From Acidobacteriota bacterium (GTDB lineage: Bacteria > Acidobacteriota > Terriglobia > Bryobacterales > Bryobacteraceae), in contig CANIVU010000046.1 in NCBI GenBank assembly GCA_947470805.1, positions 1 through 63,589 on the forward strand: a stretch of DNA of 63,589 nt. Direction: 5' to 3'. The notes under the pieces are model-generated. The model was not told the DNA's origin. It saw only the letters and a list, made by a program, of their open reading frames with translations, and did no database searches. Below are positions 24,013 through 25,580 of the stretch, piece after piece. Numbering within the stretch: position 1 is the stretch's first letter; each line of letters opens with the position of its first letter. The position numbers were made by a program, and so were the translations under genes.

Positions 24013-24123
24013 GGGGGTGTTTGCGGGTGGGGACCCGGTAGGGGCTGGCGCTTCTTGGTTTCCGTCGAGATGGGGGAGCGTGGTCTTTGGGGTAGGGTGG
24101 GCGAGTTTGCGTTGGCGGACACG

Positions 24124-24163
24124 TGTCGCTTTCAGAAATATTTGGCGCATATCCGTCAACATT
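24124..24163 (+). repeat. Left terminal inverted repeat of the cargo element
   Basis: This 40-nt end begins TGTCGCTTTCAG and includes ATATTTGGCGCATATCC. It matches the reverse complement of 25377-25416 at 33 of 40 positions. Confidence 0.75.
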
Positions 24164-24393
24164 TGTTTGGCACCAGGATCGCCGTCGGGTGTTGCGGAAA
24201 CGTGTCGCCATGCCAGTGCTCAGCGCAATACAGTCTCGCAACGCCGAAAGCCCCGCCGTTGGAAGCCGTCGCTTCCGTTGCGAAAACATCCGATTTAGCA
24301 AGGCCCAAAACCGTGCGGGGAGGGCTGGCAGGTACACTCTACACTGCGCCGTTTTGCGGGAGTTGGCCGAGGATCGCGCGCGTGTGCCTGGCG

Positions 24394-25251
24394 TTAGCGC
24401 GCAGAATTCAATAGGAACGCTCGGATCTCGCGAGCCAGAATTGCTTGCTGCTCTTCCTCGAATACGAAGCCGCCGTGAGTGGTGTTGTGCAATTCGACGA
24501 CCCGCCCGTCCCTCATTTCTCTTAGGAAGCGCTCAATCTGTTCGCGTCGGTAAGCTTTCCCGTATTCGTTCCAATAGGCCACTAATTTCAGCCTTGTGGC
24601 CTCATCCCAGAGTGCCGACTTCGGAGCTTCGTCATAGGTCACAAAGAAGCCGAGAGCGGGCACTTGGATTTGTCGCAAGTCGGGATGGTACTCATTTGAA
24701 CGGGCGATGAGAGCCAGAGTGGCGTTGTCGGCGCCGGGAAGCTTTAGATCTAAGCCTGCCTTTCGGCCCAGTTCCGCATTCTGCGGAAGATCGTACGCTG
24801 CGTCCAGATAGACAAGCTTCCCGACACGCTTCGGATACAAAGTGGCAAACGCCGTCAACTCATTTCCCGCGAGCGAATAGCCGACCAGCGTTGCCCGCTT
24901 GATCTTCTTGAAATCCAAAAAGGCCCGAATGTCCTCGACTAGCGTGGCGGTATCGTAACCGGCAACCGGTTTGTCCGAACGCCCCTGTCCGCGCCGCGTC
25001 AAGCCGATGGCATGAAAGCGGTCCCCAAAGCGGGTCGCGAGCGGATGAAAATCATCAGCCGAGCCGCCGAGGGAGGTCAGGAAGAGCAGAGTCTCTCCTT
25101 TGCCGCCCCAGTCTAGGTAATGCAGCTTGACGCCGTTGACCGTTGCGAACTGAGGCCTCGGTATTCCTGCCTTTGGATCCGCGAACGACACCATCCCCAT
25201 GGCTGCGAGAACTGCTGTCCATCTGATCAAAGCTCGTGTCGCGAAACTCAA
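24394..25251 (-). CDS. Alpha/beta hydrolase (exported), cargo of the element
   Basis: This 285-residue protein has a hydrophobic leader ending near SFADPKA and an alpha/beta hydrolase fold: HYLDWGGKGETLLFL, oxyanion region LTSLGGSADDF, nucleophile elbow G-Y-S-L-A-G (LVGYSLAGNEL), a D in VYLDAAYD or downstream, and the C-terminal catalytic His in HNTTHGGFVFEE. It most resembles haloperoxidase- or esterase-like hydrolases; the substrate is unknown. The gene uses noticeably more A and T than its neighbours and is the only gene between the two inverted ends, both signs of transfer. About 220 bp between its stop and the left end hold no credible gene. Confidence 0.87.
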   Translation of the reverse strand: MSFATRALIRWTAVLAAMGMVSFADPKAGIPRPQFATVNGVKLHYLDWGGKGETLLFLTSLGGSADDFHPLATRFGDRFHAIGLTRRGQGRSDKPVAGYDTATLVEDIRAFLDFKKIKRATLVGYSLAGNELTAFATLYPKRVGKLVYLDAAYDLPQNAELGRKAGLDLKLPGADNATLALIARSNEYHPDLRQIQVPALGFFVTYDEAPKSALWDEATRLKLVAYWNEYGKAYRREQIERFLREMRDGRVVELHNTTHGGFVFEEEQQAILAREIRAFLLNSAR

Positions 25252-25376
25252 GTCCCTATCATAGACTTTCTACGCATCACCTCAATATCACCCTAGTCGC
25301 GCAGTGTAGAGGCGACCGGTACTCGGTCCGCCCCCGTACCGGTTCAATCGCACGGTACAGGGAACGTACGCCGAAT

Positions 25377-25416
25377 AATGTTGGCGGAACTACGCCAAAT
25401 AATCCTGAAAGTGACA
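25377..25416 (-). repeat. Right terminal inverted repeat of the cargo element
   Basis: Read inward on the minus strand this end begins TGTCACTTTCAGG and includes ATTATTTGGCGTAGTTCC, followed by a second ATTATTCGGCGTACGTTCC copy just inside. GACACG follows at 25417-25422. Confidence 0.75.
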
Positions 25417-25580
25417 GACACGCTTACGCATGTCCCCGGAGGGTGGCGTTGCTGCGTAGGAATTTCCTTCTTCTGCTTCGGCGTCGGTGTGGTTGGGGGG
25501 TGGGTTCCTGAGTGGGGCCGGTGCGTTTCTATGAAAAATGGAAGAAGGGGACAGGGGTGGTTGGCACTGTATAAGGGGAT

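Follow-up and report, generated by a model that had tools for sequence, protein, structure and literature searches.

The window is the whole stretch of DNA analysed here, 63,589 nucleotides from a member of the Bryobacteraceae (Acidobacteriota), and it contains a transposon-like insert of 1293 bp at 24124–25416. The 40-bp ends of this insert, at 24124–24163 (left tip, plus strand) and 25377–25416 (right tip, minus strand), matched as inverted copies at 33 of 40 positions; among the 74,688,989 pairs of 40-mers lying 800–2000 bp apart in the window, theirs was the sole pair to reach 33. Both ends had TTTGGCG-like repeats, which are likely transposase-binding sites, and the tips read TG...CA. The sequence GACACG directly abutted the insert on either side (24118–24123 and 25417–25422, plus strand), and exact duplications of at least 6 bp occurred at 11 of 20,000 random position pairs in the fetched loci. 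These features had been described in a first-pass annotation of the same DNA, and all of them are present in the sequence.

The insertion split a REP-like repeat. The left flank ends in GGACACG (24117–24123) and the right flank starts the right part of the repeat (25417–25442, plus strand), so that the flanks jointly rebuild the interrupted repeat. Together with the two GACACG copies, the rebuilt repeat is direct evidence that an element inserted here and duplicated 6 bp of its target. At up to three mismatches, the interrupted repeat had eight matches in the 8.7-Mb genome that holds the window (G000), counting the window copy, and no control matches; the window copy diverges where the element tip stands in place of G. 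The palindromic sequence GGACACGCT..AGCATGTCCCCGGAGG lies at 25417–25442 and at seven other places in G000, with closely spaced copies in contig C193. The sequence of the empty site that the annotation had called for is shown by copies of the repeat elsewhere in the genome; no orthologous one was found at the three DUF6807 orthologue loci inspected (G002, G003, G014), which are not syntenic downstream. All genomes compared were drafts. The tip pattern was absent from the window's own genome beyond the insert's two ends, and the insert had no DNA match in the plasmid collection.

The longest ORF within the insert encodes a 285-aa alpha/beta hydrolase on the minus strand (24394–25251; Abhydrolase_1, E 1.7e-15). 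The other listed ORFs either overlap it in antisense or run through the ends. The lower GC content described for the hydrolase was borne out: 56.6% for the gene and 56.8% for the element versus 62.6% for the window, with a third-position GC of 64.3% versus 72–82% in three neighbouring genes. Relatives of the hydrolase (E ≤ 1e-30) occurred in six other genomes among 237, the best being 68% identical, and in none of 18 other members of the genus. The loci of its two closest relatives lacked tips and had no inner site (described below) scoring above 7.0. The hydrolase is one accessory gene now occupying the slot between the ends. Transposition genes were lacking among the ORFs listed within the insert, which is therefore non-autonomous.

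We found the tip pattern in 34 of 300 relatives, comprising 33 of 180 in the same family (own genome counted) and one of the 120 others; the control gave no match. Exact matches to the core of the left end in the named collection were eight stretches, all from acidobacterial MAGs, including Bryobacterales, Bryobacteraceae and Candidatus Sulfopaludibacter. Sixteen tip pairs lay on the same contig; nine were flanked by an exact 6–8 bp duplication, one by a duplication with one mismatch, and six by none, and some of these six may not be true pairs. That is, further pairs of ends, as sought by the annotation, do exist in relatives, whereas the own genome holds no second pair. We also observed a second tip subfamily, TGTCACTTTGCAAATTATTTGGCG, with 24 bases identical across several genera (L047, L048, L049, L050, L051, L052, L053, L054); L050 of this subfamily has a 6-bp duplication.

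Full-length elements with the same ends and a transposase, also sought by the annotation, were found among the relatives. The 4368-bp element L043 (G045), flanked by the duplication CCTGGC, encodes a 494-aa transposase with Mu-transpos_C and rve domains (Pfam was run on the proteins of L039 and L043 only), a 334-aa AAA ATPase and a 192-aa serine resolvase, and its cargo is an alpha/beta hydrolase-like gene. Element L105 (G009) has ORFs for transposase, ATPase and resolvase, L046 (G124) has the same set with the transposase in two pieces, and L039 (G003) has transposase and ATPase. Residues D169, D243 and E279 were present in the transposases of G045 and G003; in the G009 transposase the search string for the second D was not found. 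The nearest solved structure to the family transposase was TnsB of the V-K CRISPR-associated transposon (7svw, E 2e-55), and V-K models matched proteins of the autonomous relatives for both TnsB (E 2.7e-58) and TnsC (E 9e-9). No TniQ-like ORF was recognised among the ORFs of L043, for which no TniQ model was used. The TG...CA tips had suggested IS21, IS481 or IS3 origins, which we rejected on the TnsB/TniA-type transposase and ATPase of the autonomous relatives. The best NCBIfam match of TniA was IS481 (E 1.7e-33), at 116 bits below the cut-off of 224 for that model.

Relatives of the transposase (E ≤ 1e-20) occurred in 31 of 237 family genomes, 13 of them with a match of at least 69% identity, and in neither the window's genome nor that of a sister species, G010. 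Movement in trans is inferred from the relatives, since the window's genome offers neither a matching transposase nor a further copy of the element. The annotation had proposed such movement for a non-autonomous element; the autonomous relatives with the same ends favour it, whereas the assembled genome itself supplies no helper.

Beyond the tips, the insert has about 235 bp on the left and about 125 bp on the right in common with copies elsewhere. We counted 14 copies of this shell, including that of the window. Both ends were present in five (window, G010 contig C51, G127, G326 and G325), the left shell only in seven (G146, G002, G005, two in G133 and two more in G010), and the right shell only in two (G133). 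The five two-ended shells hold five different cargos: besides the window hydrolase, these are a PadR regulator, a 389-aa protein lacking a Pfam match and an amidohydrolase (G010 C51); a CRP-type regulator and a GNAT acetyltransferase (G127); a DuOB-domain protein and a DUF488 protein (G326); and a DUF5694 protein (G325). Homology among the shells ends in or just past a pair of 25-bp inner sites, an L type (..GC-CGT-TT..) on the left and an inverted R type (..GC-GAC-TT..) on the right. In the window, the L site lies at 24337–24361 (plus strand), where homology with other shells fades, and the R site, inverted relative to it, at 25287–25311 (minus strand). Inspection of the right shell revealed a palindrome, CCGGTAC-N13-GTACCGG, at 25316–25342.

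Comparison with the other copies also delimited a res-like block in the left shell (all plus strand). It comprises an outer motif (24190–24212), a middle motif that is the best conserved part of the left shell (24223–24243), and a putative 28-bp res site I, CGTTGC-N16-GCAAGG (24276–24303), whose counterpart in L043 is a near-perfect 28-bp palindrome and which may be the crossover site. In the order of its motifs the block resembles the stretch immediately upstream of the L043, L044 and L046 resolvase genes; in the fourth resolvase upstream region compared, that of L105, the res core was unmatched at up to 5 mismatches. It was matched at 3–5 mismatches over 21 positions in L039, L052, L099, L100 and L104; elsewhere, matches at 5 mismatches also arise by chance. 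A coding role of the left shell was rejected, as the substitutions in nine compared pairs were spread evenly over first, second and third codon positions. From the sequence, we read the block as a res site retained in cis, which would fit replicative transposition followed by resolution. Kholodii's 1995 paper reportedly has replicative transposition and subsequent resolution in its title, and Kholodii is also said to have described shuffling of modules by a resolvase. At about 525–560 of L208 (G005:C149), left-shell homology starts inside res site I and the other side is unrelated DNA; we did not count this junction as a res × res exchange, since that other side is non-res.

The sister species G010 has a 3411-bp element at the window's site, with identical orientation, duplication and neighbours. 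The interiors of the two elements had no BLASTN match at E 1e-3, and a different cargo thus occupies the same insertion. The flanking intergenic DNA was identical at 171/177 and 149/156 positions, and the shells, at 216/237 and 108/120, were more diverged than these flanks, which argues against a purely vertical history. The simplest reading is that the element inserted once, long ago, and that at least one of the lineages has since had its cargo replaced; part of the shell could have been replaced together with the cargo. Identity between the two left shells was 94.8% at element positions 35–169 and 81.2% at 170–238 (Fisher p 0.005), with limits picked after looking and last columns that extend into the cargo, so that greater divergence just inside res site I is only suggestive. 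A shared-derived site at element position 194 argues against a break in divergence there.

Alternatively, related shells with different cargo might have inserted twice, independently, at the same base of the repeat, with no replacement. The greater divergence of the shells relative to the flanks would suit such an origin, as would a target that is itself a repeat. Against it, the two elements stand at the identical base in the identical orientation, and at 12 left-shell sites the window and G010 agree against the majority base of ten other aligned copies. Moreover, the duplications of other elements have no common sequence, and the other two G010 shells, judged by their flanks, lie outside the interrupted repeat. 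We therefore consider independent insertions improbable. Still less probable is that the insert arose by deletion from a single autonomous element or IS and kept the hydrolase by chance: the lack of a transposase in the window's genome would suit such a relic, but both tips, the res-like block and the inner sites are retained, and at least 13 other copies of the shell in other genomes or loci imply that the shell multiplied as such. The view of the annotation that this is not a decayed insertion sequence was upheld by the retained tips and res-like block.

The inner sites are widespread. Their pattern (up to 3 mismatches) had 114 matches in 65 of 237 genomes versus 30 matches for the reversed control. 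With a scoring matrix made from 30 matched sites, a pair was detected in all five two-ended shells, including low R scores in G127 (11.7) and the window (18.9). In the autonomous element L105, resolvase and ATPase are separated by an R/L pair in inverted orientation, and L106 has a pair with the L type nearer the transposase; L/R pairs thus bound a cargo slot in two autonomous elements too. Single sites occurred in L039, L042 and L043, and L044, L046 and L050 had no site scoring above 11; the reversed control gave one match over the 29 loci. Twenty further regions contained 11 neighbouring pairs scoring above 15 within 6 kb, ten inverted and one direct; nine of the ten inverted pairs joined an L with an R site (reversed control 0), in regions that are mostly cargo-side with little outer sequence, where outward pairs are hardly detectable.

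Inner-site pairs also bound free-standing units, and the nine units examined contained about 1–4 small genes and no recognised transposase. One such unit, in the window's own genome (G000:C50 40121–41033; L218 1122–2034), holds a HEAT-repeat gene. The unit recurs in G010; in G014 the orthologous genes are not separated by any insert (L249 near 1086–1128), and between the same boundaries G004 carries another segment, about 1.3 kb long (L248 702–2001). Of 20 inner-site pairs, only those of the window and G010 had TG...CA tips with a duplication within 500 bp, in a test that misses L105 and L106 and that distant or worn tips may escape; L088 yielded nothing, and at L089 and L090 no duplication was seen. 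Screening the ORFs of L169–L218 against TniA, TniB, resolvase and four tyrosine recombinases turned up a single resolvase, in L190, and a single tyrosine recombinase, a Phage_integrase protein in L205. The latter ORF (L205 2890–3861, minus strand; G160:C57) adjoins inner-site units. In L177 (about 1257–1475; G072:C106), R-type sites within a long inverted repeat stand back to back, and an L-type site lies between them.

We asked whether the inner sites are integron attC/attI half-sites and the cargo is an integron cassette borne by a Tn402-like element, the arrangement of class 1 integrons. The units are compact and gene-sized, L-type sites contain GTT (some GTTAGGC), and adjacent units in L177, L186 and L205 lie about 80–88 bp apart. 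Nevertheless, an integron integrase scored above cut-off in 4 of 237 genomes (G308, G065, G330, G157), none with an inner-site match; the best inner-site score in the 20 recombinase loci fetched was 9.2; R-type sites lack the AAC that the canonical attC consensus contains; and single-strand folding of three adjacent-unit sites gave z values of −0.5, +0.9 and −2.4. G005, which has inner sites, carries an integron integrase fragment with a stop. Integrase distribution and site scores left an integron origin unsupported, and we regard it as the least probable alternative.

We concluded that the insert is very probably a non-autonomous member of a Tn552/Tn5053-like family, laid out as tip, putative res site, cargo slot and tip. 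The observations of the annotation are confirmed and its interpretation supported; the res-like block, the inner sites and the replacement of cargo are features beyond it. In the mechanism that we propose jointly with this assignment, an autonomous relative residing in the same cell would supply TniA and TniB, which would copy the shell elsewhere by replicative transposition and generate a 6–8 bp duplication, and a resolvase acting at the res site would separate the cointegrate. The cargo of a persisting shell might later be replaced by recombination at or near the res and inner L/R sites, or alternatively by ordinary homologous recombination between shells. Counted against this explanation are the absence of a helper transposase and of a second copy from the window's genome, the 6 of 16 tip pairs lacking a duplication, the failure of L105 to match the res core, the chance matches to that core at 5 mismatches, and the divergence of the window and G010 shells beyond that of their flanks.

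A broader reading is tentative and rather unlikely: a cassette-exchange system of the Bryobacteraceae, in which a recombinase would swap L-cargo-R units among shells of differing tip types and chromosomal loci. Accessory genes would lie between inverted, non-identical L (CGT) and R (GAC) sites that are otherwise similar over 25–31 bp. Such a system would be a counterpart of integrons, but with paired heterotypic sites. Should recombination take place at the inner sites, they would mark a new means of gene capture in a large group of mostly uncultured bacteria. The element itself points to a route by which acidobacterial genomes may gain or exchange single metabolic genes, in which a transposase-less carrier seems to stay at its site while its gene content changes. 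No description of the element family or its inner sites was found in a literature covered largely at title level, with subscription papers mostly outside it, and four site sequences used as text queries had no match.

Among known systems, Tn552-type transposons have the gene set of the autonomous relatives (resolvase, Mu-C transposase and ATPase), whereas the window copy has none of these genes. On a staphylococcal plasmid, a recombinase, a transposase and an ATPase are encoded next to one another, the transposase being 48% identical over 98% of the query. Duplications are 6–7 bp for Tn552 and 5 bp for Tn5053, and TniQ is present in Tn5053 and absent from Tn552. Like the insert, the tni-defective Tn5053/Tn402 derivatives, which include the class 1 integrons In0 and In2 and Tn6606, lack a functional transposition module and have intact ends, and they were moved by tni in trans (PMC7765201). 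In the portion of that source available to us, they are Pseudomonas elements with mer or integron content that insert near res sites; the insert is acidobacterial, carries a metabolic gene, has a repeat for its target and possesses inner L/R sites, and the one insertion, itself unchanged, holds another cargo in G010. Tn7-like transposons resemble it in their TnsB-type transposase, subterminal repeat arrays and very varied cargo; the survey of them lists four acidobacterial host species and, in its main text as accessed, uses the term 'non-autonomous' 0 times (PMC8649781). TIMEs and mobile insertion cassettes (MICs) are likewise non-autonomous and carry passenger genes, and some of them include a res site and the gene for a resolvase, but TIMEs, in the part of the source available, are Tn3-derived, whereas the elements here have TnsB-type tips and 6–8 bp duplications (PMC4133298). 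A MIC is recognised by transposable-element ends around passenger genes with no transposase, and the window insert has this arrangement. Derivatives of tni-type transposons that lack a transposase are a known kind of element, to which class 1 integrons, Tn6606, MICs and TIMEs may be compared; what is new is that TnsB-type ends occur here together with a cis-located res-like block, metabolic cargo that is exchangeable, and inner sites in pairs.
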